Positions 28,409-48,815 of a stretch of 64,000 bases of DNA are shown piece after piece. Position 1 is the first letter of the stretch. Each line of letters opens with the position of its first letter. This stretch comes from Sciscionella marina DSM 45152 (GTDB lineage Bacteria > Actinomycetota > Actinomycetes > Mycobacteriales > Pseudonocardiaceae), in contig NZ_KB905436.1 of NCBI RefSeq assembly GCF_000379465.1, positions 210,508-274,507 on the forward strand. Reading direction: 5' to 3'. The translations under genes were made by a program, and so were the position numbers. Below the pieces are notes generated by a model. It ran no database searches. It saw only the letters and a list, made by a program, of their open reading frames with translations, and was not told the DNA's origin.

Positions 28409-29748
28409 TTCGACTCCTCCTTGCCGTGCGCTGGCGTACCGATCCCGCCTACCGCATAAAGAGCACCATCCGGTGCCTCGGCTGTCCCTGACGACGGCGA
28501 ATAGTCACCGACACCAACCGCCTTGTCCCTGCCGTTACCACTAGCACCTGCTGCGGTGCCAGCTTGCCTGTAGCGTTGCTCATAAGCTGAACCAAGGCAG
28601 TCTTTCGTGTTCGGAGCACGCTGCCCGTCTCCGGCCATGCATTTCAGGTTCCGCGCTCCCCGCACGACGGTCTGCGCCTGATGCTGCAGTTTGCAGTACA
28701 GGTTGGGCTGAACCGGCGGAGTGTAAAGACTTGCCGGTGGCAGCTGCTTCCCCGGCGGAAGAAACCCCTTCGTGCAAGGCGTCGTCGCCTGAACCTGCGT
28801 CCGCAGGTCCAACCGCAAATGCCCATCGGTTTTCTCACTCGCCGACAGGAACGCCGTGGTCATCCTCGGATACAGCACCAGTAGCTGCTCGACCGACGGA
28901 TTGTAGGTCACCAAGGTCTGGCCCACATTGACCAGATCCGAAAGAAGTATCGGCAGGGTCGGTTTCAAATCCTGGAAGAGCCCATCGACCTGCTCGGCGG
29001 CGGGCGCACCGTGGTCAAGCAATTTCCGCAAGTCACCATCGCTCTGCCATACCCGATCGCCGAATGACGACAAGCTGTTCGCCAGCGACCGGATGTTGGA
29101 CGCCGTGTCCGTCTGTGTCTTCAACAGCGGCCCGGCACGCCTGATGAGGTCTTTCGTCGGACCGACGTTGTCCTGTGCCGTGCGGATCAACTGTTCAGCA
29201 TTGTTCAGGCTCCGAGACAATGCCGGCCCCGTACCACGAAACGCCTTCGTCAACTCGTCCAACGCCGTCCGCAGGCTCTGCTTCGGCACCGACTCCAACA
29301 GCTGGTTGGCCGACTCAAGCACCGACCCGATACTAACCGGTACATTGGTCCTATTCATCGCCACGTCCGCACCGTCTGCCAGTGCTGGCCCCGACGGATC
29401 CTTTCCAGGGACGAAATCGACGTACTGTATTCCGATCGCCGACTCACTGTGTATCTCAGCGGTGCTCGAGGCCGGAATGCGATAACTGTTGTCCAACAGC
29501 ATGCGCACCCGTACCCCATCTTTCTCCGGTGCAACCTCGGTCACCCGCCCCACCTCGGTCCCCTCATAGGAAACCTTCGTGCCCGAAGTCAGTCCCGCAG
29601 CATCGGCGAAACGGGCTGTCACCGTCTTCTCACCGAACCCGAGGAGCTGCGGCACTTGCCCATACACCAGCGTTATCACCATCAACACGACCAAACCGGC
29701 TGCGCCGAAGATCAAGAGCTGGAACCGGACGAATCTGCTTATCATCAA
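28372..29748 (-). CDS. mceF: MceF-type substrate-binding protein
   Basis: The 458-residue protein has an N-terminal membrane helix (LLIFGAAGLVVLMVITLVYG), the MlaD/Mce domain (VTARFADAAGLTSGTKVSYE), a long helical stretch (residues 150-300), and a cysteine-containing C-terminal tail rich in Pro, Gly and Ala. MceA-F form a hexameric tube that guides lipid from the outer envelope to the YrbE permease. Its start overlaps the mceE stop (ATGA). It is the sixth Mce protein in the row. Confidence 0.93.
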   Translation of the reverse strand: MMISRFVRFQLLIFGAAGLVVLMVITLVYGQVPQLLGFGEKTVTARFADAAGLTSGTKVSYEGTEVGRVTEVAPEKDGVRVRMLLDNSYRIPASSTAEIHSESAIGIQYVDFVPGKDPSGPALADGADVAMNRTNVPVSIGSVLESANQLLESVPKQSLRTALDELTKAFRGTGPALSRSLNNAEQLIRTAQDNVGPTKDLIRRAGPLLKTQTDTASNIRSLANSLSSFGDRVWQSDGDLRKLLDHGAPAAEQVDGLFQDLKPTLPILLSDLVNVGQTLVTYNPSVEQLLVLYPRMTTAFLSASEKTDGHLRLDLRTQVQATTPCTKGFLPPGKQLPPASLYTPPVQPNLYCKLQHQAQTVVRGARNLKCMAGDGQRAPNTKDCLGSAYEQRYRQAGTAAGASGNGRDKAVGVGDYSPSSGTAEAPDGALYAVGGIGTPAHGKEESNWQSILLRPISP

Positions 29749-30959
29749 TGGCCTCCCAGCGACCCGAGCAGACCACCCAACAAACCGCCACCGCCGTCCT
29801 TGTGCTGGTCGCCCGCACCGGGGCTCGGCGGCGCTGGAGTCGGAGCGGGGTTCGTATCCTGCTTCTTCTTGCCACCTAGACCTTGAAGCGGACCGGTCAG
29901 CAGGCTACCGACCTCGCTGCCGACTCCGCCCACCAAGCCCTTGATCGCCTGCGGAGAGACGAAGGCCAGTTCATCCCTCTTCAACTGCTCGTTGGACAAA
30001 TCGATCGTCAAGTAGAGGTTCGTGAAATCGCCCCGAACAGCCGTCTCTTTCGGCGCATCCTCCATACGAACAGGAAACGGTCCACTGGCGATGATGTTCG
30101 TTGCCTTCACCAATGAATCACCCGAATCCGCAAGACTCCTGGAAACATTCTTGAGATGATTCAGGTTGTCCACGAGCGGCCGTTGCAGGTTTCTGAATAC
30201 ATCATCGGACTGATCGGAGAATTTACCGATATTATTCAACGCATCCGTGATCTGCGGACGCTCCTGATCGAGGACGCTCAGCGCACGTGGCAGCTCGGAC
30301 AAGGTCTTCTTGATCGTCTGCGTGTGCGCCGCACCCTGCTTACCGAGTTCATTCAGTCCGTCCAGAGCATGTACGATACTCGACTTCTGCCGATCGGCAC
30401 TCGAAACGAGGTCGTTGATCTTGTGCAACGCATCCCTCGCTACGTTTTCACGTCCACCCAACGCATTGTTGACTTCTGACGTGATCGTGCTCAGGTTCTG
30501 AAGTCCACCGCCATTGAGGAGGTTTGACGCGCCAGCCAACGTCTCCTCGGTGTCCGGGTACGCCTTCGTGCGCGAAAGCGGGATGCTGCCGCCATCGGCT
30601 AATCGGCCCACCGGCGCCTCACCGGGCGGCGGGCCGAGCTCGATATGGCTGGACCCCAGTAGACTGGTCTGGCCAATCTTGGCGACAGCGTTTTTCGGCA
30701 AGATGACATTCCGATTCAATCGCACAGTAGCCAACGCATGCCAGTGATCCGGCCTCATTCCCGTCACGGCTCCGACGACAACATTATTGTCCATGACTTG
30801 AGCGTTCGAGAAAACATTGTTCAGGTTCTCGAACTCGATGTTGACCGTATACGATCCATCGCCATCGCCCTCGCCGCCTGGCCAGACGCCGTCTCCTGCC
30901 GAACAGCCTGCGACCATGATCGCCGCAACGAGGAACACTGCGCACTTCGCGACCCTCAT
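29745..30959 (-). CDS. mceE: MceE-type lipoprotein
   Basis: The 404-residue protein starts with a lipoprotein signal (FLVAAIMVAGC, Cys at about residue 19), as expected for the MceE/LprK position. The Mce domain follows (VNIEFENLNNVFSNAQVMDN), then a helical region and a Pro-rich C-terminal tail with GGGGLLGGLLGSLGG. It would anchor the Mce tube through lipid rather than a helix. The gap from the mceD stop is 2 bp. Confidence 0.93.
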   Translation of the reverse strand: MRVAKCAVFLVAAIMVAGCSAGDGVWPGGEGDGDGSYTVNIEFENLNNVFSNAQVMDNNVVVGAVTGMRPDHWHALATVRLNRNVILPKNAVAKIGQTSLLGSSHIELGPPPGEAPVGRLADGGSIPLSRTKAYPDTEETLAGASNLLNGGGLQNLSTITSEVNNALGGRENVARDALHKINDLVSSADRQKSSIVHALDGLNELGKQGAAHTQTIKKTLSELPRALSVLDQERPQITDALNNIGKFSDQSDDVFRNLQRPLVDNLNHLKNVSRSLADSGDSLVKATNIIASGPFPVRMEDAPKETAVRGDFTNLYLTIDLSNEQLKRDELAFVSPQAIKGLVGGVGSEVGSLLTGPLQGLGGKKKQDTNPAPTPAPPSPGAGDQHKDGGGGLLGGLLGSLGGH

Positions 30960-30961
30960 CG

Positions 30962-32197
30962 CTACTTTCCCGCCTTCGGTTTGAGCAGACCGCCCAGAAC
31001 TCCGGGCACGTCAGGCTTGGGCAATATCTGGTTAGGACCAACGTTCACCTGCGGTGGTGTCCCGTTCAACGGAAGCGTCGGGTTCACGTTCACCGGTGGA
31101 TGGTCCAACTGCAGCAGATTGAGCAATGGCCCAGCATACTTCTTACAGAGATTCATCGCCTCGTTCAGGGGCTTCTCAGTCACCGTCTGAATAGCGGAAC
31201 AGACGAACTCGGACGGGTTTTTCAGGTTCGGCACATCCAGGCTCCCAGTGAAGGAACCATCACGGCCCGAGTAAATTCCGTAGAAGTTCCCGAACACCGT
31301 CGGCGCGACGTGCAATGCTTGCTCCAGGCTCTCCTTCTGCTTAGCAATCGAACTCGACACGTCCGCCATCTGCCCCACGGCCTGCTTTGCCTCAGCTCGA
31401 TGCTGCTTCAGAAACGCCGTCACGTCCTCGGCCGCGGAGTCCAGCCCCCGCAGCGCTACCGCCAATTGGTCCTTATTGTCGTCGAGTACGCCGGACACCG
31501 AATCCAGTCGTCGCATAAATTGCTCAATTTGGTCATCACTCGTACCGATCGCCCGTACGAAGACCTGAAGATTTCGTACGCTTCCGAACAGGTCGCTCCT
31601 CCCATCGGACAAGGTCTGCATCGCCTGCGAGACTTGCTCGACCGTCTGATGGAAGTTTTGCCCCTGCCCTTTGTACTTCGCTGCCGCATTCAGCAAGCTA
31701 TTCAACGAACCGTTCTTGTTCGCTCCGTTCGGACCGAGCGCGTCCGTCAACTGGCTCAACTGTTTCTTCACGTCATCGAATTCCACCGGGACCGCCGTTC
31801 GATCCTCGGATATTACGGCGCCATCAGCCAACTTCGGGCCGTTGACGCGCCCAGGAGTGAGCTGTATATACCTCACGCTCAACAGCGCCGGTGACACAAT
31901 AGCGGCACGCGCGTCTCTATCCGCCGCATACTTACTATCGTAGTGGAACCGAACGGCCGCGCGACCCGGCTGCGGCGTGATCGAGTCGATGGTTCCCACC
32001 TTCAAGCCCCTGATACGAACCTCATCGCCGGCGTACAGTCCCTTGGTGTTCGAAAAGTAGGCCGTCACATTGGTGTTCTGACCCTGAAACCAGACCACCA
32101 TGGCTGCGGCTACCGCAAGGACGACAACGGTCAAAGCCGTCACGACACGCACGCCCCTACCGCCGGCCGTATTCTTAAGGACCGATACGAATCTCAT
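30962..32197 (-). CDS. mceD: MceD-type substrate-binding protein
   Basis: The 411-residue protein has a membrane helix (VVTALTVVVLAVAAAMVVWF), an Mce domain (VTAYFSNTKGLYAGDEVRIR), a helical barrel region (about residues 120-290) and a Pro-rich tail (NVNPTLPLNGTPPQVNVGP). Start overlaps the mceC stop. It is a subunit of the Mce lipid-transport tube. Confidence 0.92.
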   Translation of the reverse strand: MRFVSVLKNTAGGRGVRVVTALTVVVLAVAAAMVVWFQGQNTNVTAYFSNTKGLYAGDEVRIRGLKVGTIDSITPQPGRAAVRFHYDSKYAADRDARAAIVSPALLSVRYIQLTPGRVNGPKLADGAVISEDRTAVPVEFDDVKKQLSQLTDALGPNGANKNGSLNSLLNAAAKYKGQGQNFHQTVEQVSQAMQTLSDGRSDLFGSVRNLQVFVRAIGTSDDQIEQFMRRLDSVSGVLDDNKDQLAVALRGLDSAAEDVTAFLKQHRAEAKQAVGQMADVSSSIAKQKESLEQALHVAPTVFGNFYGIYSGRDGSFTGSLDVPNLKNPSEFVCSAIQTVTEKPLNEAMNLCKKYAGPLLNLLQLDHPPVNVNPTLPLNGTPPQVNVGPNQILPKPDVPGVLGGLLKPKAGK

Positions 32198-33240
32198 TTC
32201 GTTCCTCCCGGCTCGGCGGGACCAGTCGCTCCCGGAGCGATCGTACGGTCCGGGGGTGTGTACTGCCCGGGAAGCGGCGTTATATTCGTCAAGGCCAGAT
32301 TACTGATGAAGGCGTCCCAGAAGGGCCCGGATGCCAACGCCTCACCCAGTGTTTGCGCTACTGGCCCGGCCTTTTGAATTGCTGACGCGATACTACCTTC
32401 GTTTCTCCGTAAAACGTCGAGGACGCTGTTCAAATGCTGTAAAGCCGGGCCGAGCTGATCCTTGTTGTCTTTCACCAAGCCGCTAACCTGCTGAGCAACC
32501 GAGTCCATATTAACGATAAGGGCGTGGATCTCGGCCTTTCGACTCTGAAGCTCATCCAAAAGCGCACCACCATCGGTGAACAACTTGTTCAGTTGAATAT
32601 TGCGACTCGCCAAAATACCTGACACACCGTTCGCGCCGCGGAACAGGTCACGCACCTTTGAGTCACGCGAGGATACGGATTGAGACAGCCTCGTCAAGCC
32701 TTGCAGCGCCGGCCTCAGTTCACCTGGAGCACCCCCGAACGCGGAGGAGATCGCATCGAATGAACTAGCCAACTTCTTCTTGTCGATATCACCGGCAAGC
32801 GTGCTGACATTGCCGAGTTGCGATGTGATGTCATAGGGGACAGTCGTTCGCGATTGTGGGATCAACGCATCCGACGCCAGCTGACCTGATCCGGAAGGCG
32901 TCACTTCCAGATACTTCTTGCCCAGTAGCGTCTCGGTCTTGATCGCCGCTGATGTGTGCTGCCCCAACCTTCCGACTTCATTCGAGGTGATAGCGAAGTC
33001 CACAACGATCGAGTCGTCCGTCAAGTCGATGTCCTGAACCTTGCCGACCGTCACTCCGCCGATACGCACTTGCGACCCGACTTCGAGACCCGCCACATCG
33101 GTGAAGGCGGCACGATAAACCTCTGCGCCCAACAACTTGGGGAAGGCGTCGAAGTTGAACAAAACCCCGAGCACGAGGCCGACAACCGCAAGGCTCACGA
33201 CCGCTACCCGAACCGGACTCATTTCACGGAAGCTCTTCAT
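32194..33240 (-). CDS. mceC: MceC-type substrate-binding protein
   Basis: The 348-residue protein has a membrane helix (VRVAVVSLAVVGLVLGVLF), an Mce domain (YRAAFTDVAGLEVGSQVRIG) and a long helical region with repeated heptads (residues 150-310). The short tail ends TGPAEPGGTK. Start overlaps the mceB stop (ATGA). Subunit of the Mce tube. Confidence 0.92.
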   Translation of the reverse strand: MKSFREMSPVRVAVVSLAVVGLVLGVLFNFDAFPKLLGAEVYRAAFTDVAGLEVGSQVRIGGVTVGKVQDIDLTDDSIVVDFAITSNEVGRLGQHTSAAIKTETLLGKKYLEVTPSGSGQLASDALIPQSRTTVPYDITSQLGNVSTLAGDIDKKKLASSFDAISSAFGGAPGELRPALQGLTRLSQSVSSRDSKVRDLFRGANGVSGILASRNIQLNKLFTDGGALLDELQSRKAEIHALIVNMDSVAQQVSGLVKDNKDQLGPALQHLNSVLDVLRRNEGSIASAIQKAGPVAQTLGEALASGPFWDAFISNLALTNITPLPGQYTPPDRTIAPGATGPAEPGGTK

Positions 33241-34283
33241 GGTTTACCTGGCCTTCCGCAACGATCAGTCGGATGCATCAACCAAGGCGTATAGATACTC
33301 TTGTCACCCACACCGCTCAACCTGACCCGGATGCCGCAAGCATATGCATTCGTAAATGATCCTCGGTTCCCGATCCTGTCGAATACGGTATAAAACACCG
33401 GCAGCAATTGAAGTGACTTTTCGAGGTACCCCTTGTCGGCGTCCACATTTTTTAGCAGTCTGCCGGATTGATTGATCGTCTCTTTCAACGGCGGCCTGGC
33501 CGTCTTGAGTGTGTCGGTCAGGGTTCCGGTCAGATCGGCGACTTTTCCTAGTGACTGCCCTATCGGTTTCCTGTCGGAAGCCAAGCCGCTAACCAGTGCT
33601 TGTAGCTTGTTCAACAGCATAGAGAACTCCCCGCCATGCTGGTTGACAGTTCCGAGCACCGTGTTGAGGTTATCGATCACCTTACCGATGAGCTGATCGT
33701 GCCCCGCCAGATTGTTCGTCAGTGAGCCAAGATGTGCGAGTAATCCCTGGACCGTTTGCCCTTGTCCCTGGAACACCGCGATCAGTTCTCCGGCGACGGC
33801 GTTCACTTGTTTCGGTTGCAGACCTTGAAAAAGCGGCTGGAAACCATTGAGCAATGTATCAAGGTCCAATGCAGGCTTTGTACGTCCGACCGGTATAGTG
33901 GCGCCGACTTTCATAGGGGTCTGCACACCGGAACCCCTAGTGAGGTCAAGGTAACGGTCGCCAGTGAGGTTACGATACCGAATATTGGCATGAACGCTTT
34001 CGGGAAGATACTGACCTTGTTCGATACTAAATGCGACAGTGGGTTTGCCATCGTGGAGCTCGATATCTTCGACACTTCCGACTTTGACACCCGCAATTTC
34101 CACCGCATTGCCCGCGGAAAGTCCCATCACGTTGCCGAAAGCAGCCTTGTACTGTTTTGTGCTACCGAAGGTCGTTTGAGACAACTGGACGGCCAGAGCA
34201 GCAAGCACGAGGGCGCAGATCACGGCCAAAATAGACAATCTGGTCAGATCGCCGCGGATCGCTATAGCGGATTTTCGCGTCAC
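33237..34283 (-). CDS. mceB: MceB-type substrate-binding protein
   Basis: The 348-residue protein has a membrane helix (LSILAVICALVLAALAVQL), an Mce domain (YKAAFGNVMGLSAGNAVEIA) and a helical region. The C-terminus (NAYACGIRVRLSGVG...DRCGRP) carries the two conserved cysteines seen in MceB proteins. Start overlaps the mceA stop. Confidence 0.92.
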   Translation of the reverse strand: MTRKSAIAIRGDLTRLSILAVICALVLAALAVQLSQTTFGSTKQYKAAFGNVMGLSAGNAVEIAGVKVGSVEDIELHDGKPTVAFSIEQGQYLPESVHANIRYRNLTGDRYLDLTRGSGVQTPMKVGATIPVGRTKPALDLDTLLNGFQPLFQGLQPKQVNAVAGELIAVFQGQGQTVQGLLAHLGSLTNNLAGHDQLIGKVIDNLNTVLGTVNQHGGEFSMLLNKLQALVSGLASDRKPIGQSLGKVADLTGTLTDTLKTARPPLKETINQSGRLLKNVDADKGYLEKSLQLLPVFYTVFDRIGNRGSFTNAYACGIRVRLSGVGDKSIYTPWLMHPTDRCGRPGKP

Positions 34284-35443
34284 TTCGGTCCCCCAGAGCC
34301 AGGGATACCCTCACTACTGTCAGGATCTTCCATACCTGCCCCCGGAACCTCCATACCCGCACCCGGTATCTTGTATTTCGGCGCCGGGCCGTTTACGCCA
34401 GCCATCGGAAGACCGAGGCAAGCCGGTCCGCTATGCGTGTCCTGACGCGGAAGGTTTTGGGGATAACGGTAGGGTTCCTTCCCTGGAAGAAACCCTACCA
34501 TCACGCGGGCCCCCGGACCGTACTTGCGTGATCCCATAATCTGAGTGAGCCGTTTTTGCGACTTATCCATACCCTGGAAGAGACACGGATACTCCGGCGC
34601 ATACTTGTCCAGGAGACGACTGGTCGGAAGAAGGAGATTCAAGCTGTCGACCAGGTTCTTACCATTACTGGCAAGCAGATTTCCTCCATCTTGTCCAGTG
34701 GCGCCGAGTTGGCGGAGGAAGCCATCGACTGACGGTCGCTTATCCACAAGCGTGTTTCCAATATTCGTCCCCTTGTCCAGGAGATTGAATAGCGGGCGCG
34801 CAAGGCTTGCGTAGAGACCAGCTACGTCTCCGAGCCTGTTGAGATCGTTCGTCGCGGAGCTTATCTCGGGGTTTATGTCTGCGAGATACCGATCCACCTG
34901 GGCCAAGACATTGCCCAACTGCCCGCCCTTGCCCTGCAATGCGGTGGACATACTGTTCAGAAGAGTATTCACCTGCGATGGCTTCGCCGTGCTGAGCACG
35001 TCGGTCAGGTTCTGGAACACCTTGTTCACCTCGACCCCAACGTGATCAGCGGTCAGTACAGTCCCATCCCGGACTGGTCGACCAGCGTTCGTGGCGGGGG
35101 CGGAAAGGCTGATAAATTTGTTCCCGAACGCCGTTTCCGGACTGATCGAAGCGCTTGCATTCTGCGGTACCAGATGTGAGTCCTGGCTCTGGATCGCCAA
35201 ATCCAGTGCGGCCCCCTGGTCTGTCAACTGCACACCCTTGACGGTACCGATCACGACGCCGTGCATTTTCACGGAGTTGCTGGGCGCCATCATCAGTCCA
35301 GCGCGATCCGTCATGAGACGTACAGAGACGGTCGAAGCGAACGCGTTGTTCATCAGTGCAAGCGTGAGCGAAATTATGCCCACGAACGCAACGAGCATGC
35401 CGGCCCCGGTAATCCTTGCGCCGTAGTCCTTCATGATGGCCAT
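34280..35443 (-). CDS. mceA: MceA-type substrate-binding protein
   Basis: The 387-residue protein has a membrane helix (GAGMLVAFVGIISLTLALM), an Mce domain (VSVRLMTDRAGLMMAPSNSV) and a helical region. The C-terminal tail carries the short repeat IPGAGMEVPGAGMEDP followed by GIPGSGGPK, probably flexible and exposed at the tip of the tube. It follows yrbEB after 7 bp. First of the six Mce proteins. Confidence 0.92.
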   Translation of the reverse strand: MAIMKDYGARITGAGMLVAFVGIISLTLALMNNAFASTVSVRLMTDRAGLMMAPSNSVKMHGVVIGTVKGVQLTDQGAALDLAIQSQDSHLVPQNASASISPETAFGNKFISLSAPATNAGRPVRDGTVLTADHVGVEVNKVFQNLTDVLSTAKPSQVNTLLNSMSTALQGKGGQLGNVLAQVDRYLADINPEISSATNDLNRLGDVAGLYASLARPLFNLLDKGTNIGNTLVDKRPSVDGFLRQLGATGQDGGNLLASNGKNLVDSLNLLLPTSRLLDKYAPEYPCLFQGMDKSQKRLTQIMGSRKYGPGARVMVGFLPGKEPYRYPQNLPRQDTHSGPACLGLPMAGVNGPAPKYKIPGAGMEVPGAGMEDPDSSEGIPGSGGPK

Positions 35444-35450
35444 GGTTTGC

Positions 35451-36299
35451 TTACCCCGAAATGTGCAGAGTTTTCGTGCCGCCCCAAAGCGCCATGGCGA
35501 CCAGCAGATTGACTGTCGATATCGAGATCAGCGAGGCGCGCACTGCTCGCCCCACAGCTTCTCCAACTCCTGCCGGACCGCCCGTGGCAGTATAGCCGTA
35601 GTAGCAGTGCACTAAGATCACCACTATCGCGAGCGCGATAGCCTGGACGAACGAGTAAAGTAAATCGATAGGCTGAAGAAACGTATAAAAATAGTGATCA
35701 TATGCGCCCGAGGACACGTGATAGAACAGCACGGTGACCGCTTTATAACCGACATAACTCAGTATAACCGAGGCTGCATACAATGGAATCACGGTGACGA
35801 ACCCGGCTACGAGCCGGGTTGATACGAGATAAGGGAGAGACCGTATCCCCATCGTTTCCAAGGCATCTATCTCTTCATTGATACGCATTGATCCGAGTTG
35901 GGCAGTGATTCCCGTGCCTACTGTCGCCGCCAAGCCGGCACCCGCGATGAGAGGTGCGGCCAACCTGGTATTGATAAACGCAGAAGCGAATCCGGACAGC
36001 GCCGTCAGCCCAACTTGGTTTAGTCCGTAGTATGCTTGCACACCAGCGTTGGTTGCGGCGAAGAACGTGAGGAACCCGGTGATTGCCACCGATCCGCCTA
36101 CCAGGGCCAATGCTCCGCTACCCATACCGACCTCGGCGATGAGCCGTAATTGCTCTCGTTTATATCGAACAATGACCCGGTAGACCCACTTGAACACATT
36201 GCCGTAGAAGATCCCCTGGCGTCCGATCGCATCCAATGTACGCCCGGGGGCCTTGAGCACAGAGGCTATATGCTCTTTTACCGCAGTCTTGTTCGCCAT
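35451..36299 (-). CDS. yrbEB: YrbEB-type Mce permease (MlaE family)
   Basis: The 282-residue integral membrane protein has 5-6 hydrophobic segments and the MlaE-type coupling segment LGSMRINEEIDALETMGIRS. It pairs with YrbEA as the permease of the Mce ABC transporter. The start is ATG 36299 with GAGG 7 bp upstream; the open frame extends to 36479, but that would overlap yrbEA deeply. Confidence 0.93.
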   Translation of the reverse strand: MANKTAVKEHIASVLKAPGRTLDAIGRQGIFYGNVFKWVYRVIVRYKREQLRLIAEVGMGSGALALVGGSVAITGFLTFFAATNAGVQAYYGLNQVGLTALSGFASAFINTRLAAPLIAGAGLAATVGTGITAQLGSMRINEEIDALETMGIRSLPYLVSTRLVAGFVTVIPLYAASVILSYVGYKAVTVLFYHVSSGAYDHYFYTFLQPIDLLYSFVQAIALAIVVILVHCYYGYTATGGPAGVGEAVGRAVRASLISISTVNLLVAMALWGGTKTLHISG

Positions 36300-36325
36300 G
36301 CCAGTCCTCGCGTCATTTCGTATTT

Positions 36326-37174
36326 CTAAGTTCGTGATCCTACAATGCCGAGCGTATATGGTAGAGATGTAAGAAAGAGATTCGCCACGAACAGCACGAC
36401 AAAGGAGGCAACGACGGTCTCGTTCACAGCGTTGCCAACCGCTTTCGGTCCTCCCTTGACCGACAGCCCACGGTAACAAGCGACCAATCCGGCAAGTAGT
36501 CCGAACACAATGGCTTTCACTTCGCCGACGATGAGGTCGGGCACTCCCACCAGAAGATTCAGATTAGCAATGAAAGATCCGGAGGCCGCTCCCTGTAGGC
36601 CGACCGAGAACAAGTATCCTCCGCCGAGTCCGATGAGGATCACGATCGAATTCAACAGCATGGCGACGAACGTCGAGGCCAGAGTTCTGGGCACGACGAG
36701 CCGATGGACCGGATCGATTCCCAGGACCTGCATAGCGTCGATCTCTTCCCTGATCGTGCGAGCGCCGAGATCAGCACATATGGCGGTTCCACCGGCACCG
36801 GAAACGACCAGGGTCGTGACGATCGGACCGATCTGGGTTACGGTCGCGAACGCCGTGCCCGAACCACTGAGATCCATCCCTCCGATATTTTGCAAGACAT
36901 TGTTGAATTGAAAAATGACGAGACAAGTGAATGGTATCCCCACGAAAATTGCAGGCCCGACACTGACTCGTGAGATGAACCAAGACTGCTGTACGAACTC
37001 TTTCCACTGGATAGGCGGCTTGAACATGACCCGCACGGTCTGCAGCGAAAGCGCGAAGAACCCGCCGGCGGCGGCAAGAACTTTGGACAGGACCGAATTC
37101 GACCTGGAGCCGCCTACTTTTCCGCCCTTGCGCACTTCCTTGACTGTCGCTGACCGCTGCGCTGAGCTCGTCAT
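36326..37174 (-). CDS. yrbEA: YrbEA-type Mce permease (MlaE family)
   Basis: The 282-residue integral membrane protein has the MlaE segment LGARTIREEIDAMQVLGIDP and the GPIVTTLVVSGAGGTA helix. A basic N-terminus of about 30 residues precedes the core. Start overlaps the ATPase stop (ATGA). Together with YrbEB it forms the membrane gate that receives lipid from the Mce tube. Confidence 0.93.
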   Translation of the reverse strand: MTSSAQRSATVKEVRKGGKVGGSRSNSVLSKVLAAAGGFFALSLQTVRVMFKPPIQWKEFVQQSWFISRVSVGPAIFVGIPFTCLVIFQFNNVLQNIGGMDLSGSGTAFATVTQIGPIVTTLVVSGAGGTAICADLGARTIREEIDAMQVLGIDPVHRLVVPRTLASTFVAMLLNSIVILIGLGGGYLFSVGLQGAASGSFIANLNLLVGVPDLIVGEVKAIVFGLLAGLVACYRGLSVKGGPKAVGNAVNETVVASFVVLFVANLFLTSLPYTLGIVGSRT

Positions 37175-38280
37175 CGGCTGTATCCAACCCGCTCAGTAGT
37201 GATGGTCGTCTCGCTGCTGTAGTCGACAGTTCCGCTGATATGACCGTCCTCGCGCTGATGTGAGTTCATCGGCGCGGCGTCGAGACCATAGCGCCGTAGC
37301 TCGTCCGGCTCCATCGAACCGATAATTGCTTTTTGCGCGCCGGGCGGTAGTGATCCCAGTGAGCTCATGACGCGGTCTTTTCGCCGTATTTCGGCGCTCC
37401 GCTCGGGCAAGCCCGGTGTCGGCTTGATCTGCGGTGCCACACCACGCACATCGTCTGTGCCGCCGTCATGGTGGCCGGCATCCAGATGCTCCCGCTCTCG
37501 CTGTATCTGCGCGGTGTCTTTTTCCTCCGACATGCCGATCGGCCCCACACGGCGACCGTTCAAAAACTGTTCGACGGCCGGTTCTTCGGATGTGAGGAGC
37601 AGCTCTCGCGATCCGAACATGACGAGCTCTTTGCGGAACAGCATCCCGATGTTGTCCGGCAAGGTCCTCGCCACGTTAATGTTGTGCGTCACCACAAGGA
37701 TGGTCGCGTCTATTTGTGCGTTGAGGTCCACCAGGAGTTGCGACAGATACGCCGTTCTCACTGGGTCAAGCCCGGAATCTGGCTCATCGCAGAGGATGAT
37801 TTGCGGATCTAGCACGAGCGCCCGTGCTAGACCAGCACGCTTCCGCATACCTCCTGATATTTCGCCAGGGAGCTTGCCGTCCGCACCAGCGAGGCCTGTC
37901 ATCTCGAGTTTTTCCGAGACGATCCGCTTGATTTCGGACTCGGACTTACGGGTGTGCTCACGTAGCGGGAAGGCGACGTTGTCATAGAGATTCATTGACC
38001 CGAACAGCGCGCCATCTTGAAAGAGCACACCGAACAGCTTCCGGATTTCGTACAAGTCTTTTTCTGAACAACGCACCACATCGGTGCCGTCCACCGAGCA
38101 ACTCCCCAATTCCGGGCGTAGCAGTCCGATGACCGACTTCAGGAAAACTGACTTTCCTGTACCGGACGGACCGAGAAGGGCACTTACTTCGCCGGGTGGA
38201 AGCGTGAGGGTGACGTCTCGCCAGATGTTTTGGTTGCCGAAGGACTTCGTCAGGCCGTCGACCACGACTTCAACACCCAC
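37171..38280 (-). CDS. mceG: Mce ABC transporter ATPase (MceG/Mkl/MlaF type)
   Basis: The 369-residue ATPase has Walker A GPSGTGKS, Q-loop GVLFQDGALFGSM, signature ISGGMRKRAGLARAL, Walker B ILCDEPDSGLDP and the switch His in VVTHN. A C-terminal extension of about 110 residues is rich in charged residues and is characteristic of Mkl proteins. The start is GTG 38280 with AAAGGAG 5 bp upstream. In mycobacteria the ATPase is encoded away from the mce operons; here it is the first gene of the operon. Confidence 0.94.
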   Translation of the reverse strand: MGVEVVVDGLTKSFGNQNIWRDVTLTLPPGEVSALLGPSGTGKSVFLKSVIGLLRPELGSCSVDGTDVVRCSEKDLYEIRKLFGVLFQDGALFGSMNLYDNVAFPLREHTRKSESEIKRIVSEKLEMTGLAGADGKLPGEISGGMRKRAGLARALVLDPQIILCDEPDSGLDPVRTAYLSQLLVDLNAQIDATILVVTHNINVARTLPDNIGMLFRKELVMFGSRELLLTSEEPAVEQFLNGRRVGPIGMSEEKDTAQIQREREHLDAGHHDGGTDDVRGVAPQIKPTPGLPERSAEIRRKDRVMSSLGSLPPGAQKAIIGSMEPDELRRYGLDAAPMNSHQREDGHISGTVDYSSETTITTERVGYSR

Positions 38281-39371: not shown

Positions 39372-40877
39372 TCAGCGCGCCGGCGCGTCCTCCTCTTGTT
39401 TGTGGAGTCCTACCTCACGAGCCCTGCGGAACAGTTCGGGCATGCCGACTTCCGGATCACCGACGACGTCTCGGGCCCATTCCGCCAGGGTCGCCAACGC
39501 CGGGCTGCCGGCCTCGGAAACCGGTGCCAGAGGCAATGCGCCGTCAAATATCTCTCCTGTGCCCGCATCGACGGTGATTCGCTGCCCAGCAAGGCGCTCC
39601 AGCGTCCCCGCGCCGCAACCGACCACGCAGGGCGTGCCCAGTTCGCGGCTCACGACCGCCGCGTGCGAAGTGCTCCCGCCGACCTCGGTGACGACTGCCT
39701 TCGCCGCGATCATTCCGGCTACATCGTCCGGATCGGTATGCGGGCGAGCCAACACGACATCGACGGAGGATTCCGCTTGCGCGCAGGCGGAATCGACGTC
39801 GGTGACGACCACACCGGTGGCAAGGCCCGGACAGGCGGTCTCACCACGCGCGAGCACGACGGCTTCGGCACGGCTTTCGGGTGTGATCCGCGGCCGTCGC
39901 AGTGCGGCGACCTGATCGTCGGTGATCCGCCACAGCGCCTCGTGGCGTGTGATGAGGCCGGATTCGTGCAGCGAGACCGCGAGCCGCACCGCGGCGTCCG
40001 GCGAGCGTTTCGCCGCACGGGACTGCAGCAGCCAGAGCGTGCCCGACTCCACGGTGAACTCGATATCCTGTACGTCCTTGGCGAGCTGCTCCAGTTTCCG
40101 CGCTGCGGCGAGCAGCTCCTCGTGCACGCGCGGTTGAGTCCGCGCCAACGTGTCCACGGCAAGCGGGTCGGACCGACCGGATACGACATCCTCACCCTGA
40201 CCGCGCGGCAGCCATTCGCCGTAGGCCGCCTCGTCACCGGTCAGCGGATTGCGTGAGAACAGCACCCCGGTCCCGGACAAGTCGTCGAGGTTGCCGAAGA
40301 CCATCGCCTGCACGATGACCGCCGTGCCGGCTTCATCAGCGATCCCGTGGTGACGCCGGTAGGAAATCGCACGGGAAGAGTTCCACGAGCCGAACACGGC
40401 ACCGACGGCTTCGAGTAGCTGTTCCCACGGCTCGGGACTCGGAGCTCGGCCGACAACACGTTCGTATTGCTCCCGGAACCGCCGCGCCGTGTCCGCGGCA
40501 TGGTCGGCATCCCCGGTGAGTTCAGCGATTCCGCGCTCGACCTCGGCATTGATACCGAGATTGAGCACGGTGTCCATCATCCCTGGCATGCTGCGCGCCG
40601 CACCGGAACGCACCGAAACCAGCAGCGGCCGGGCCGGATCCCCGAAACCTCGCCCGATACGCTCCTCGAGTCTGCTCAGCGCGTGCCGGAGCTCGGCCGA
40701 AACGCCGATGGGAAGCGTGCCGCCCGCCGCGTGAAACTGTCCACAGACCTCGGTCGTGAGGACGAAAGCGGGCGGAACAGGCAATCCGGCATTCATCATG
40801 AGATTGAGGCTGTACGCCTTGCCTCCCACGACATCACGCTCCAGAAACGGATGCTCGCCCAGCCAGATCACGCTCAT
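39372..40877 (-). CDS. PEP-synthase-like ATP-grasp protein with phosphohistidine domain
   Basis: The 501-residue protein has an N-terminal PPDK/PEP-synthase ATP-binding domain (ERDVVGGKAYSLNLMMNAGL, SVRSGAARSMPGMMDTVLNL) to about residue 320. A swivelling phosphohistidine domain follows (GGSTSHAAVVSRELGTPCVV, His in TSHAAVV). The C-terminal PEP/pyruvate TIM barrel is absent. ATP would phosphorylate the His, which then passes phosphate to an acceptor. The acceptor probably comes with the sister protein encoded at 41519. Start ATG 40877, with GGAGAGG upstream. Rifampin phosphotransferase and phenylphosphate synthase are the nearest functional models. Confidence 0.82.
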   Translation of the reverse strand: MSVIWLGEHPFLERDVVGGKAYSLNLMMNAGLPVPPAFVLTTEVCGQFHAAGGTLPIGVSAELRHALSRLEERIGRGFGDPARPLLVSVRSGAARSMPGMMDTVLNLGINAEVERGIAELTGDADHAADTARRFREQYERVVGRAPSPEPWEQLLEAVGAVFGSWNSSRAISYRRHHGIADEAGTAVIVQAMVFGNLDDLSGTGVLFSRNPLTGDEAAYGEWLPRGQGEDVVSGRSDPLAVDTLARTQPRVHEELLAAARKLEQLAKDVQDIEFTVESGTLWLLQSRAAKRSPDAAVRLAVSLHESGLITRHEALWRITDDQVAALRRPRITPESRAEAVVLARGETACPGLATGVVVTDVDSACAQAESSVDVVLARPHTDPDDVAGMIAAKAVVTEVGGSTSHAAVVSRELGTPCVVGCGAGTLERLAGQRITVDAGTGEIFDGALPLAPVSEAGSPALATLAEWARDVVGDPEVGMPELFRRAREVGLHKQEEDAPAR

Positions 40878-40893
40878 CTCGACACCTCTCCGA

Positions 40894-41508
40894 TCAGATC
40901 GCGCGGCCCGCAGCCGCTTCCTCGGCACGGGTCCGACCGAGCAAGCCGATCAGCTCCTCGTGCAGTTCGAACCAAACCGTGTGGTAACTGTCGATGAGCG
41001 GACGGGCAATGAATGTATGATCGCCGGACACGATGCGGTCGAGGGCGTTTTCGAACCGCCCCGGGTACGGTTTGAGCCTGTCCGCCAACGCGACGATCCC
41101 ATTCAGCAGTGGGGCAAAACGCGTGTGCAGTTCCCCGAGCCGATGGACGACCTGCTCGTCGTATTCCTGATCCAGATGGTCGTTGGGCGTTTCGGGGTCC
41201 TTCATCTGCCATGCAGTGATGATCGCCTTGAACTCACTGTTGTATTCATCGAACGATGAGTATTCGGCCGCCAAGGCGTTCCCGTCCACCTCCGCCGCTT
41301 CCGCCGCGATGAGCTCAGCGACCCGTTGCTTGCCTTCAGCAGTGATCCGGAAGGCCGAGTTCACGGCTCCACTCACCAAGGCGCTCCCGGCCAGTTGCTC
41401 CAGTCTCTGCGATGCTTCCGACGGGGATACACCGGCGACCGCCGCGGCAGCCTCGGCCGTACATCTTCCCTTGAAGCGGACCGCCTGCAATATCGACAGC
41501 TCCGACAC
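40894..41508 (-). CDS. Winged-helix-like protein between the split dikinase genes
   Basis: The 204-residue protein begins with a MarR/winged-helix-like domain (LQAVRFKGRCTAEAAAAVAG, then SPSEASQRLEQLAGSALVSG and an FRITAEGKQRVAEL wing). An acidic helical C-terminal domain of about 130 residues follows. The GTG start at 41508 has GAGGAGGAG upstream and follows the previous stop by 10 bp. It is either a regulator or, given its fixed place between two dikinase halves, a structural subunit. I cannot decide between these from sequence. Confidence 0.7.
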   Translation of the reverse strand: MSELSILQAVRFKGRCTAEAAAAVAGVSPSEASQRLEQLAGSALVSGAVNSAFRITAEGKQRVAELIAAEAAEVDGNALAAEYSSFDEYNSEFKAIITAWQMKDPETPNDHLDQEYDEQVVHRLGELHTRFAPLLNGIVALADRLKPYPGRFENALDRIVSGDHTFIARPLIDSYHTVWFELHEELIGLLGRTRAEEAAAGRAI

Positions 41509-41518
41509 CGTCTCCTCC

Positions 41519-43147
41519 TCAGCCGGTCTGGGATGCGTGTTCGCGTTCGAGCACTTCCACATCTCCGCTGTCTCCATCGACTCGCACGTAGTCACCGGTG
41601 CGCAGGACACGGGTCCCTTCCTTTGTGTTGACCACGCAGGGAATCCCGAGCTCACGTGCGACCACGGCCGCATGGCTGAGCTGGCCGCCGATATCGACCA
41701 CGAGTGCCTTGGACAAGAACAGCACCGAAGCCCAGCTCGGATCCGTGGTCGCGGCCACGATGATCTCGTCGGGTTCGACCTCGGCGAAGTCGGGATCGTT
41801 GACGACCCGGACCACCCCTTCGACGACACCCCGGCTGACCCCCATGCCACTGATCATGACCGTGCCACCGGACGTGGAGTCGCTCGAAGGTCCCGCCGAG
41901 ATCGGCTCGGGGGTGCCCTGCCAGACCACGGGCAGCTCCATCGACAGGTAACGCATCCGCTGTTCCTGACGCGTCGAGATGAGATCGCGCGCGTTCGGTG
42001 GAAGCTCGACGGCCACCTCGTCGGCGGTCAGGTACAGGATGTCTTCCGGGTCGCCAAGCAGATCCCGATCAGCCAGCAGGACACCGATGCGACGCGCCGC
42101 TGCCCTGGCCACATCGAGCGAACGCAGGAACGTCACCTTGCCCACCCCGCGCAGTGGAACATTCTTGCGTGCCAGCGACAATACGGCCTTCGCGCCCGCA
42201 CGCCTGCCCCGCGGCAGCGCGGCCAAGAGCTCGGCCTCGGCTTCCTCACGCTCATCAGAACGTCGCGCCGCCGCGGCCAGTGGATCATGCTCGTCCGTCC
42301 GCCCTCGGTATTGCTCGGCCAGCCGCAACACGGGTGAGGGATCCTCCCGCCACACCCGGCCCGCGATATCTCCCTCCAACGGACCGTGGTAGCCATGTCG
42401 CCGGAGGAACTCCTCGAGCCCGATTTCTCCGTGTGCCAGTCCCCAGAGATCATCGACGATCTCGGTCTCCGCGTGCGATCCCTGCCCACCCATCAGCGCG
42501 CTCCCCGACTCTCCCATCCCGGCTTTCTCGATGAGCGCGAGCAACTGATCATAAACCGGCTGTACTCCGATGAACATGCCATGCGATTGCAGCTCGACAG
42601 CGCGATCGAACCGCCTGCGGGCGGAAGTGAACTGAGCTCGCGCCTCTGCCAATCCGAGCCGTGGCGTCCGCTCGACCTCACGCGCCCACCACGGCGCGAC
42701 CTCCGCCGACTCGCGCAACATCCGTTTGCGGACCGTCACGAAGGCCCGCGGTAACTTCACCGCCGCTATCGGATACCGGCGCCTTGTCGGAGCGGCCACG
42801 AATCCGGGGGGAACCATCCCGAGGAACTGCGTGGCAATCGCCTCTCCGCTACTGCCCGGGAGCCGGTCGCCCATGGCACACAGGAAATCGACACGCGCGG
42901 CGACTCTGCCATAGAATATGTTGATCACGCGTTCCTGATCGCGTTCCGGGATCGCGGCCGCTGCCCGCGGCAATGCGCCCATCTCCACGAAGGCGGACCG
43001 TGCGGCGAGTTCCGAGGCCGGACCCCATACCGACCACCCCAGCGGCGTCAGCACGCCCGGCATCGCCTCACCGAGATTCGTGGTGCTGTAATACGAGGAC
43101 GGGTCCGCCGCAGAGTGCAGCACGTCCCCCTGACTTTCTGTCATCAT
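41519..43147 (-). CDS. PEP-utilising enzyme with substrate-binding and phosphohistidine domains
   Basis: The 542-residue protein has an N-terminal TPLGWSVWGPASELA segment, typical of the substrate-binding part of rifampin-phosphotransferase-like enzymes. A helical middle follows, then a C-terminal phosphohistidine domain (GGQLSHAAVVARELGIPCVV, His in LSHAAVV). It lacks the ATP-grasp domain, which is supplied by the protein from 39372. The three genes 41519, 40894 and 39372 form one operon with 10-16 bp gaps. Start is ATG 43147 or the following ATG. Confidence 0.8.
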   Translation of the reverse strand: MMTESQGDVLHSAADPSSYYSTTNLGEAMPGVLTPLGWSVWGPASELAARSAFVEMGALPRAAAAIPERDQERVINIFYGRVAARVDFLCAMGDRLPGSSGEAIATQFLGMVPPGFVAAPTRRRYPIAAVKLPRAFVTVRKRMLRESAEVAPWWAREVERTPRLGLAEARAQFTSARRRFDRAVELQSHGMFIGVQPVYDQLLALIEKAGMGESGSALMGGQGSHAETEIVDDLWGLAHGEIGLEEFLRRHGYHGPLEGDIAGRVWREDPSPVLRLAEQYRGRTDEHDPLAAAARRSDEREEAEAELLAALPRGRRAGAKAVLSLARKNVPLRGVGKVTFLRSLDVARAAARRIGVLLADRDLLGDPEDILYLTADEVAVELPPNARDLISTRQEQRMRYLSMELPVVWQGTPEPISAGPSSDSTSGGTVMISGMGVSRGVVEGVVRVVNDPDFAEVEPDEIIVAATTDPSWASVLFLSKALVVDIGGQLSHAAVVARELGIPCVVNTKEGTRVLRTGDYVRVDGDSGDVEVLEREHASQTG

Positions 43148-43219: not shown

Positions 43220-43633
43220 TCAGAGCAGATCATCACGGCCAATGTCTTTGAGATAGGCCTTGTATTGCGCATACGCGGGCGTGAGGACGGGAAGTAGACC
43301 GAGCATCTTGGTCAGGTTCCCGCTCGTCTTGACCTTTCGTTTCGCCAGCGAAATCGGAAGGTTGAGGTCACCGAGCCAGAACTTATGGCCGTCATCGCCC
43401 GACATCGACAACGCCACCTCCGTATCGGCGGCCGTAGCCTCGGCGCCCGTGAGGACCCTTACCGGATCGCCGGTCGCGTCGATGACGAGCGTCCCACTCG
43501 GATCATGATAGTCGACCCGGAATGAAGTGTTCGCTTTCACGAATTTCGGACCTAACTCGGGATCCGACGTCACTTTGCCGAGAAAAGGTTCGACGATGCC
43601 AAACATCTCATCAGCCGACTGGAAGATCGCCAT
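43220..43633 (-). CDS. SCP2 sterol-binding domain protein
   Basis: The 137-residue protein consists of one SCP2-type lipid-binding domain, with VDYHDPSGTLVIDATGDPVR and the KFWLGDLNLPISLAKRKVKT helix-strand region, and TSGNLTKMLGLLPVLTP at the end. Such proteins carry sterols or acyl-CoAs in the cytoplasm. It stands between the dikinase operon and a ferredoxin gene on the same strand, and fits a lipid catabolic pathway. Confidence 0.85.
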   Translation of the reverse strand: MAIFQSADEMFGIVEPFLGKVTSDPELGPKFVKANTSFRVDYHDPSGTLVIDATGDPVRVLTGAEATAADTEVALSMSGDDGHKFWLGDLNLPISLAKRKVKTSGNLTKMLGLLPVLTPAYAQYKAYLKDIGRDDLL

Positions 43634-43934: not shown

Positions 43935-44828
43935 CTAATCCTTGCTGTGCGCTTTCACTCGCGAATTCGCCTCGAGATCCCCACCATCCTCGGGCTTGCC
44001 GGCAACGCTTTCCTCGTACGCGGCCCGCGCCTTCGTGTCTGCTTGCAGCAGCAGTTTGTCGGCATTGGTGAGCCTTGCAAGAAAATCACGTAGCCGGTAC
44101 GGCATTCCGCACATCGCCAAGGACATCACGCCCATGACCTTGGGAACCCAAATCACGAATCGTGGTTTGCGCAGACCGTCGACGATGGCATTCGCCACCT
44201 CGTCCGGAGTCACCTTGGACAACCCTTTGACATCGGCGAGCCCCGCACCGAGGTCGGTTTTCACCACCGCCGGCCCGACGACCGAGACATTGATACCCGT
44301 GCCGTGCAGCTCCAGCGACAGCGCATGGGAAAACCCGACGACGCCGTGCTTCGAGCCACTGTAGGTTGCTCCACCGCCGCCGGCGACCCAGCCTGCGCCG
44401 GAGCTGACATTGACGATATGTCCCTTACCGCCCCGTCGCTTCAGCCGCCGCACGGCTTCCTTGCTGCTCCACAGCACCGCATGCAGGTTGATCCCGAGCA
44501 CCCGTGCCGCGGTCGCATCGGACTCCTCCTCGAACGGCCCAATCGGCATGATCCCGGCGTTGTTGATCAGGATGTCGACCGGTCCGAGGCGCTGTTCTAC
44601 CTCATCGAAGACCCGGGCGAATGCGGTGTGGTCGAGTACATCGAGCGGCAGTCCGATCGCACCTGTTCCGATCTCGGCGGCGGCTTTCTCAACGTCCGCA
44701 CCATTGAGGTCCACCAACGCTACCTTCGCGCCGGCTCTCGCCAGCGCCCCGGCAGTAGCCCGGCCGACGCCACGCGCCGCCCCCGTCACGAGTGCCACCT
44801 TGCCAACCACGGAGGCCTGTCGACCCAT
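43935..44828 (-). CDS. Short-chain dehydrogenase/reductase
   Basis: The 297-residue SDR has TGAARGVG, NNAGIMPIG and the catalytic YSGSK, with a C-terminal extension (MPYRLRDFLARLTNADKLLL) typical of lipid-linked mycobacterial SDRs. The start is ATG 44828 with AAAGGAG 8 bp upstream. It probably oxidises a hydroxyl of the lipid substrate or a beta-oxidation intermediate. It lies upstream of the ferredoxin on the same strand. Confidence 0.88.
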   Translation of the reverse strand: MGRQASVVGKVALVTGAARGVGRATAGALARAGAKVALVDLNGADVEKAAAEIGTGAIGLPLDVLDHTAFARVFDEVEQRLGPVDILINNAGIMPIGPFEEESDATAARVLGINLHAVLWSSKEAVRRLKRRGGKGHIVNVSSGAGWVAGGGGATYSGSKHGVVGFSHALSLELHGTGINVSVVGPAVVKTDLGAGLADVKGLSKVTPDEVANAIVDGLRKPRFVIWVPKVMGVMSLAMCGMPYRLRDFLARLTNADKLLLQADTKARAAYEESVAGKPEDGGDLEANSRVKAHSKD

Positions 44829-45411
44829 GTTTATTACTCCTTTGCCTGTGTGCGGCGAGCGACCACCCGAGCAACTCGTTCCTGGCTCGGCACATCCGGC
44901 ATGGCCACGGCCGCGCGGTACCCGGAAGGCCTGCGCCTTAGACACTTCGCCGATACTGCGCGCGAATACCTTGACCATGCTGCTTGCATACCGTGCGCCA
45001 TCCCTGGCAGCGGATAGCGACGGGATCCTTCGGAGAGCCCAACGGTTTCCGCGGCCGAGCCGCCACACCCTGAACATCGCTCAGCCGCACAAGCCCGATG
45101 GTCATGTCGGGATTCATTTCTAGTGACCTCTCAGCACACCAATGTCACCGACCTCGCCTGGCGAAGTCGCACTCGTCGCTGTTGCACGTGACACAGAAGC
45201 TACCTCGCGGGAGGTCGATACGCAACCTTTCGTTAACCATGGCCTTTCCGTCAATCTTCCAAAAACTGCCTGCAATATTGGTATAAAGTGGCCACCATGA
45301 GCATCCGAAGTTAACACTCGTTCTCTCATGAGTAGGCTGAACTGCCTCAACAGCGCAGTAGGACGCCGGTGCGCGTCACTGTGAGGGCCGCGAGACTAGG
45401 GAGCACTGGAC
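44829..45411. other. 580-bp divergent intergenic region (SDR / TetR)
   Basis: No gene is seen. GTTAACACTCGTTCTC at 45310-45325 weakly resembles the palindromes at 58037 and 38613, and TATAAA near 45291 may be part of a promoter. Either strand could be served. Confidence 0.4.
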
Positions 45412-47846: not shown

Positions 47847-48815
47847 ATGACCGAACAGAACCAGGAACTGTACGCGCCGCAGCAGGGCTTCGTCGCCCCG
47901 CGCGCCGAGGACGAGTTCCTGCATACCGGCGGGGATCCGAGCGATTACACGATCTCGGAGACCTCCTACCTCGGCTTCAACATCCCCGAGTCCGGTATCA
48001 ACGGCGAGATCTATCATTGGTACCATCCCAACCTCGGTATCGCCAGCGGTGGCCTCCTTCTCTTTCAGGGGCACAAGCAGCAGACCGCCGAGGCCGATTA
48101 CCTCGACTACCGCAACTTTCAACCGCTTCCGCAAAGCGACCTGCACGAGCATTCCTACCCGACTGGAGTACGAATCCGGGTGGTGCAGCCCCTCCAAGAG
48201 ATCGAGGTGCGATTCAGATCTCCGGACGGAGCTACCAGCCTGGACCTGACCAGCACAGCGATCATGCCGGCGGCCGGACGTGCCGACGGCAAGCACTTCG
48301 CCCAAGCGATGCGGTCCACCGGAGAACTAGTGCTAGACGGCGAAAAGCATACTATCGACAGCTTCTTCACCCGGGACCGTTCATACCTTTCCCCCAGGCC
48401 CGAGGGCCCGCATGCCATACCGCCGTTGACATGGGGTGCCGCGGTCTTCAATCAAGAGCTCGCCATTCACTTCGTCGCGCATGATTCTCTTTCGCTTTCC
48501 GACGAGCAGCTGCGCTGGGGATACGTGTGGCGTCATGGCGAGCTCCGGCGACCGGTGCGGATCAGGCAGCAGACCTTTCGCGCGGAAGACGGCGTCACCC
48601 CGCACGCCGCCGATGTGGAGATCGAAGACGAGGCCGGCGAACTCTATCGACTACGAGGCCGTAGCATCGCTCGGATGCCGATGTCGTTCTGGCCCAACAT
48701 GGTGACGAACCTGATGTTGATGAGATATGAGTCCGAAGACGGTTCGGTCAGCTTCGGCGAATACCAAGATGTCGTATTCAATTCATTCCTACGCTCAGCG
48801 CGCCGGCAACAGTGA
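47847..48815 (+). CDS. DUF7064/7065-type lipocalin-like protein
   Basis: The 322-residue soluble protein is rich in beta strands and aromatic residues (EIYHWYHPNLGIASGGLLLF, DSFFTRDRSYLSPRP, LRWGYVWRHGEL). It resembles the two-domain lipocalin-like proteins that occur near steroid and aromatic catabolic genes (AttH/CrtC-like superfamily); this is a distant match judged by layout. It follows the ferredoxin reductase by 94 bp on the same strand. No catalytic residues can be assigned. Confidence 0.6.
   Translation: MTEQNQELYAPQQGFVAPRAEDEFLHTGGDPSDYTISETSYLGFNIPESGINGEIYHWYHPNLGIASGGLLLFQGHKQQTAEADYLDYRNFQPLPQSDLHEHSYPTGVRIRVVQPLQEIEVRFRSPDGATSLDLTSTAIMPAAGRADGKHFAQAMRSTGELVLDGEKHTIDSFFTRDRSYLSPRPEGPHAIPPLTWGAAVFNQELAIHFVAHDSLSLSDEQLRWGYVWRHGELRRPVRIRQQTFRAEDGVTPHAADVEIEDEAGELYRLRGRSIARMPMSFWPNMVTNLMLMRYESEDGSVSFGEYQDVVFNSFLRSARRQQ

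Follow-up and report, generated by a model that had tools for sequence, protein, structure and literature searches.

Organization of the operon

We analyzed a 64,000-nucleotide stretch of the Sciscionella marina DSM 45152 genome (NZ_KB905436.1, positions 210,508 to 274,507), hereafter the window, and focus on three of its genes, P1, P2 and P3, which appear to encode the parts of an ATP-driven phosphotransferase. All three lie on the minus strand, packed tightly end to start, and are transcribed in the order P3 (41519..43147, 542 aa), P2 (40894..41508, 204 aa) and P1 (39372..40877, 501 aa). An original prediction, made from the letters of the window, had described them as a split enzyme with two phosphohistidine domains and placed the open reading frames (ORFs) correctly, but set the starts of P1 and P2 too far upstream. 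The P1 frame is open from GTG 40928; its start is most likely ATG 40877, directly past the P2 stop and behind a good ribosome-binding site; GGAGAGG separates the P2 TGA from this ATG. P2 most likely begins at GTG 41508, which likewise directly follows the P3 stop with a good ribosome-binding site; the sequence between the P3 TGA and the P2 GTG is AGGAGGAG.

Domain architecture of P1 and P3

P1 matches the Pfam domains PPDK_N (153 bits) and PEP-utilizers (80 bits), and scores 715.8 bits against the curated family NF004531 (PRK05878), for which the cut-off is 456. Because the pyruvate phosphate dikinase (PPDK) profile TIGR01828 gives 450 bits and the phosphoenolpyruvate (PEP) synthase profile TIGR01418 only 123 bits, we classify P1 as a PPDK-type protein; NF004531 is the family of Mycobacterium tuberculosis VadK/Rv1127c. 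Its best solved relatives are PPDKs, and its identity to the mycobacterial sequences in our alignment is ~50%. The putative catalytic residue His405 (codon 39663..39665, minus strand, motif GGSTSHAA) corresponds by motif to His422 of VadK. It is invariant in a 17-row alignment, as is R90, the motif equivalent of the VadK ATP-site residue Arg106, and it is kept, in all contexts, in every P1 that is complete to that point. VadK, the renamed Rv1127c, phosphorylates its own His422, and growth on propionate depends on both this residue and the ATP site (PMC13400623).

Of the parts of a full PEP synthase or PPDK, P1 thus holds the ATP-grasp domain and the swivel His and lacks the PEP/pyruvate barrel (PF02896). 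The barrel is absent from P3 as well, and none is encoded in or near the operon. The genome has two PF02896 matches, both on another contig: one in a 560-aa frame, probably enzyme I of the sugar phosphotransferase system (PTS), and one in a short 323-aa frame. We therefore reject the idea that a separate barrel gene completes P1 to a full PPDK or PEP synthase, since none is encoded nearby.

P3 consists of a predicted substrate-binding domain (residues ~1-420) like that of rifampin phosphotransferase (RPH) and a phosphohistidine (swivel) domain (~425-534). The latter is matched by PEP-utilizers over residues 458-528 (82 bits) and contains His492, the putative catalytic residue (codon 41672..41674, minus strand, motif GGQLSHAA), which is invariant in 39 aligned relatives. 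The AlphaFold model has a predicted local distance difference test score (pLDDT) of 91.9 and a predicted template modelling score (pTM) of 0.92, and its best whole-chain fold match is RPH (5fbt, E 8e-22, TMq 0.70). In sequence, P3 aligns to the C-terminal 300 residues of RPH. The description of P3 as partly substrate-domain-like was accordingly right and can now be made more specific, with the RPH fold extending over the whole chain.

As RPH is the closest solved fold, P3 might be a detoxifying antibiotic phosphotransferase of the same kind whose ATP-grasp domain has become detached. We regard this as very improbable, given that identity to RPH is only ~18% over the structural alignment, that the neighbors are catabolic rather than resistance genes, and that P3 multiplies within catabolic islands. 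A role in rifampin resistance itself is likewise disfavored by the catabolic neighbors.

A Pfam search found no ATP-grasp domain in P3. P3 homologues do occur behind a full PPDK_N domain in one chain, in Rhodococcus sp. ZPP and on R. koreensis plasmids, and the existence of relatives fused to an RPH-type ATP-grasp domain argues that standalone P3 needs an ATP-grasp partner. Since P1 is the sole PPDK_N protein of the 8.5-Mb genome and P3 has no ATP-grasp domain of its own, P3 has no other donor of a known kind.

A conserved partner of the kinase

The original prediction had also placed a winged-helix protein in the middle of the operon, and the structural model of P2 bears this out. Although all helix-turn-helix matches in the profile search were below threshold, the model (pLDDT 95.8) predicts a MarR-like winged helix in residues 1-74 (structure match Z ~12, root-mean-square deviation 1.5), followed by a C-terminal helical bundle. 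VIA-align returned a single match restricted to the bundle, 3t6g; with a Z of 11.6 it falls among the scores that common helical arrangements give, and we base no conclusion on it. Across 47 relatives, eleven positions vary little or not at all. Two of these, H176 and H183, lie on one helix and are invariant in 47/47 homologues; they could form a phosphoryl-carrier site.

In our sample of the order, P2 lies within ~125 bp of every VadK-type gene scoring >600 bits but one, where the distance is 3.9 kb. A P2 gene is also found next to mycobacterial members of the VadK family, and two loci (L091 and L181) carry in-frame P1-P2 fusions. P2 thus goes with the PPDK-derived kinase and not with P3 or the lipid genes, because it adjoins VadK-type genes no matter which acceptor accompanies them, and is in two cases fused to P1. 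From its gene position, Rv1126c, the operonic partner of VadK, would be a P2-family protein. Coexpression of Rv1126c improved the solubility of VadK, and 2 M NaCl served to part the two (PMC13400623). A plain regulator of lipid genes is a disfavored role for P2, which tracks P1 irrespective of the acceptor and is found fused to P1 or to an AMP-binding protein.

The latter fusion lies on the Rhodococcus plasmid pLW3 (L034 14863-17034), where a P2 homologue is attached C-terminally to an AMP-binding, acyl-CoA ligase-like protein, flanked by an acyl-CoA dehydrogenase gene and P1. At two other loci (L062 848-4023 and L066 746-3969), P2 homologues stand directly ahead of a ~845-aa PPDK variant; PF02896 scores 27 bits in one of these variants and is not matched in the other.

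Distribution of the three genes

P3 loci were found in Pseudonocardia, Mycobacterium, Mycolicibacterium, Nocardia, Gordonia, Nocardioides, Actinomycetospora, Sporichthya and Halopolyspora, and in some metagenome-assembled genomes (MAGs) of other groups. For counts by genome, standalone and fused P3 were sorted by open-frame length. A VadK-type gene above 600 bits is present in 18 of the 24 genomes with standalone P3, and in neither of the two genomes with fused P3 only. The copy numbers of kinase and acceptor differ. At four loci (L101, L109, L118 and L124) a single P1-P2 pair is accompanied by two or three P3 of full length. In Nocardioides sp. Root190 (G328), three P3 accompany the only PPDK_N protein, which is of VadK type, and in M. 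triplex (G326), about eight standalone P3 compare with one VadK-type kinase plus an ATP-grasp ORF that an internal stop interrupts. Because such single-kinase loci and genomes hold multiple P3, P1 likely serves as donor for more than one of them. The system is most likely a donor pair with an exchangeable, often multi-copy acceptor, and not one enzyme split in three.

Standalone HpeI-like ATP-grasp ORFs, in frames of 350-366 aa, also share contigs with P3 genes in M. triplex (G326 C2:364818-365714 and C2:357313-358899; the first ORF has an internal TAG) and in a second genome (G341 C24:20556-21458).

A donor-acceptor model

We propose that P1 and P2 form a VadK-family, ATP-driven phosphoryl-donor unit and that P3 is a substrate-specific acceptor and transferase, a reading to which we assign a probability of roughly 0.6. 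ATP would bind in the PPDK-type ATP-grasp domain of P1, and the swivel His405 would be self-phosphorylated. The phosphoryl group would then pass to His492 of P3, whose swivel domain would turn to the RPH-like pocket and phosphorylate a hydroxyl of a hydrophobic small molecule, perhaps one imported for catabolism, as the nearby Mce importer, sterol carrier protein 2 (SCP2)-like carrier, short-chain dehydrogenase (SDR) and acyl-CoA genes would fit. P2 would belong to the donor as a structural subunit or adaptor, with a role beyond regulation of the operon. We infer the His-to-His step from the presence and conservation of both residues; the role of P2, the class of product and the substrate are inferred as well. 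For the final step there is precedent, as hydroxyl phosphorylation was shown for HpeH-type proteins (PMC12167813).

Several observations weigh against this reading, and two of the alternatives build on them. HpeHI, CreHI and PpsAB work with a single His, located on the substrate subunit (PMC12167813), and the P3 relatives fused to an RPH-type ATP-grasp domain also have one His domain. By the same route the P1 ATP-grasp domain might load the P3 His directly, leaving the P1 His off the path as a vestigial, stabilizing or regulatory residue. This is the main rival, yet we consider it unlikely, as every P1 complete to that point retains this His within its GG-x-x-S-H-A-A motif, which would not be expected of a vestigial site, and VadK phosphorylates the corresponding residue (PMC13400623).

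A different concern comes from the published work on VadK, which reports that it binds enzymes of the methylcitrate cycle and tunes that cycle, and proposes regulation of these enzymes (PMC13400623). P1 and P2 might correspondingly be a regulatory kinase whose targets are metabolic enzymes or the winged-helix protein itself, with P3 an independent operon mate. The predicted MarR-like fold of P2 is a classical DNA-binding one, which makes a role as transcription factor possible, and P1-P2 pairs without a nearby P3 do occur. We nevertheless hold this to be still less likely than direct charging: P3 has no ATP-binding domain and the genome no other such donor, P3 is linked repeatedly to P1-P2 across Actinomycetota and in Diaphorobacter, and transcription of the methylcitrate cycle is reported not to be regulated by VadK (PMC13400623).

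The distribution also has its gaps. Six of the 24 genomes with standalone P3 have no clear VadK-type gene; most of these are fragmentary MAGs, and one, Actinomycetospora (G322), is an isolate that has other PPDK_N proteins. Finally, the gene neighborhood yields a class of compound only.

The systems closest to the donor-acceptor arrangement that we favor include three groups of characterized proteins. VadK/Rv1127c with Rv1126c shares the architecture of P1, a PPDK-type ATP-grasp domain and a His domain without a barrel, whereas the window operon adds the RPH-like acceptor P3. The second group comprises the two-component small-molecule dikinases HpeHI, CreHI and PpsAB, which act on hydroxyphenylethanones, 4-cresol and phenol, respectively (PMC12167813). 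Like the window system, they divide the ATP part and the substrate/His part between two polypeptides, have an RPH-like substrate part and occur in a catabolic setting. Their ATP subunit, however, is a bare ATP-grasp domain with a PEP-synthase-like nucleotide motif, whereas P1 is of PPDK type with its own His; the window also has P2 as a third conserved protein, and one donor can adjoin several acceptors. By analogy, P1-P2-P3 may work as these enzymes do, but their definition does not cover it, since P1 is derived from PPDK and has a His of its own. RPH is the third: P3 matches its rifampin-binding and swivel domains and some P3 relatives are fused to PPDK_N in the RPH manner, but RPH is a single chain, and in the window the ATP-grasp domain sits on a separate protein of another subfamily.

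P1-P2-P3 is therefore not a plain member of any characterized system and combines a donor of the VadK family, an RPH/HpeH-like P3 and a winged-helix partner. A literature search for catabolic clusters annotated with these three genes turned up nothing other than HpeHI and its kin. The original prediction had taken phenylphosphate synthase as its working principle; with HpeHI, CreHI and PpsAB all two-component dikinases (PMC12167813), the analogy was reasonable. Its reading of a split, RPH/PEP-synthase-like enzyme with two His domains and no barrel holds for P1 and P3, but the ATP protein belongs to the PPDK-derived VadK/Rv1127c family and not to the PpsB/HpeI kind.

Genomic context and substrate

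On the minus strand, the three genes are preceded by an SDR gene (43935..45077; adh_short 176 bits) and, directly upstream of P3, a gene for an SCP2-like protein (43220..43633; PF02036, 22.5 bits against a cut-off of 21.3). The SDR match starts at residue 93, and the true start of this gene is probably near ORF residue 83. The SCP2-like protein could be a carrier of the substrate. Downstream of P1, after a gap of ~1.1 kb, follows an Mce lipid-import locus (28372..38280, minus strand) with an ABC ATPase, two MlaE/YrbE permeases and MlaD/Mce proteins, matched by the profiles ABC_tran, MlaE, MlaD and Mce4_CUP1. The set of P1, P2 and P3 is found again, far above chance, in Mycobacterium, Nocardia, Nocardioides, Pseudonocardia, Gordonia, Halopolyspora and Diaphorobacter.

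Catabolic genes surround P3 elsewhere too. Among them, SDRs were counted in 17 loci, cytochrome P450s in 13 and acyl-CoA dehydrogenases in 9, with luciferase-like oxidoreductases, enoyl-CoA hydratases, APH/EcKL-type kinases and thiolases as further neighbors. A DUF7064/DUF7065 gene is present in 24 of 40 P3 loci, often touching P3; such genes are few in the Sciscionella genome, and the window holds one for a DUF7064 protein (47847..48815, plus strand; PF23212, 57 bits). These neighborhoods point to the catabolism of hydrophobic compounds as a class and not to an exact substrate; P3 would act on a hydrophobic alcohol or phenol. The earlier proposal that a lipid hydroxyl is phosphorylated thus agrees with the catabolic neighbors, from which its lipid substrate is still read.

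A possible role for VadK in mycoketide phosphorylation

Over residues 319-535, P3 scores 121 bits against NF004520, the Rv2047c family. The C-terminal part of Rv2047c is homologous to P3, and Rv2047c-like proteins retain the swivel His and, in modified form, the P3 substrate-domain motif (GHRGPGEVEM versus HGYHGPLEGD), whereas an epimerase-like part replaces the N-terminal half of P3. At mycobacterial loci, VadK-P2 lies beside a pks12-like/rv2047c-like operon (L177 2251-19425, L178 1964-19072 and L180 1456-18535; also L179 and L181). In the first three of these and in L179, the gene for a polyketide synthase of 4.1-4.4 thousand residues with two ketosynthase (KS) domains and an NF004520-like gene are divergent from VadK-P2. 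The kinase of L179 was missed by the gene caller and was placed by family search at G442:C308:10196-11572. In length, these synthases resemble Pks12. The gene order matches that of the published pks12-rv2047c operon (PMC7058343).

Across 118 mycobacterial-genus genomes, VadK is present in 51 of the 53 with an NF004520 protein, a count that takes in pseudogenised or fragmentary cases, versus ~8 of the 65 without (Fisher p ~6e-22, not corrected for relatedness). In a tree, most pks12-adjacent VadK form one group with the VadK of other mycobacteria. In published transposon data rv1127c, rv2047c and pks12 have a common profile, being needed with mycobactin and not with heme, a profile that they share with mmpL5, mmpS5, mmpL11, rv0455c, murI and irtB. 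The adjacency of VadK-P2 to the pks12-like/rv2047c-like operon and the co-occurrence of VadK and Rv2047c suggest that VadK may feed Rv2047c in the phosphorylation of mycoketide, for which neither kinase nor reductase had yet been identified in a 2012 review (PMC3318773).

Three genomes depart from the pattern: G388 has Rv2047c without any PPDK_N protein, G423 combines pks12-rv2047c with PPDK_N proteins other than VadK, which it lacks, and in G445 VadK is intact despite a broken Rv2047c. VadK may therefore have other partners too. G445 is one of two reduced 3.3-Mb mycobacterial genomes in which Rv2047c is broken; in the other, G410, VadK is also broken (G410 C1:1388463-1389074 and C1:2023608-2026190; G445 C1:1723802-1726134).

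We speculate, at somewhat less than even odds, that kinases of VadK type, together with the winged-helix protein, act as general ATP-driven donors to RPH-like acceptors, much like a soluble PTS hub. In tuberculosis-type mycobacteria Rv2047c would be the acceptor, and VadK, Rv1126c and Rv2047c together would be the missing kinase system for mycoketide, the product of Pks12. In a bolder variant, H176 and H183 would make P2 a phosphoryl carrier between P1 and P3.

Conclusions

If the donor-acceptor model is correct, P1-P2-P3 would be a modular phosphotransferase system with a single ATP-charged donor for several acceptors, each specific to its own substrate. Such a one-donor/many-acceptor design is known from the PEP-driven sugar PTS; we know of no report of it for ATP-driven small-molecule dikinases. 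The likeness to enzyme I and HPr of the PTS is by analogy only, in that a general His-phosphorylated donor serves several substrate-specific acceptors; the window donor would use ATP rather than PEP, has no barrel, HPr or membrane components, and is not orthologous.

The model would also give VadK, which is required for M. tuberculosis virulence, a specific chemical partner beyond the methylcitrate-cycle explanation. It would provide candidates for two steps of mannosyl-phosphomycoketide synthesis, reduction and phosphorylation, that the 2012 review left unassigned (PMC3318773). More widely, dozens of uncharacterized acceptors of environmental Actinomycetota would likely be kinases of hydrophobic alcohols or phenols.

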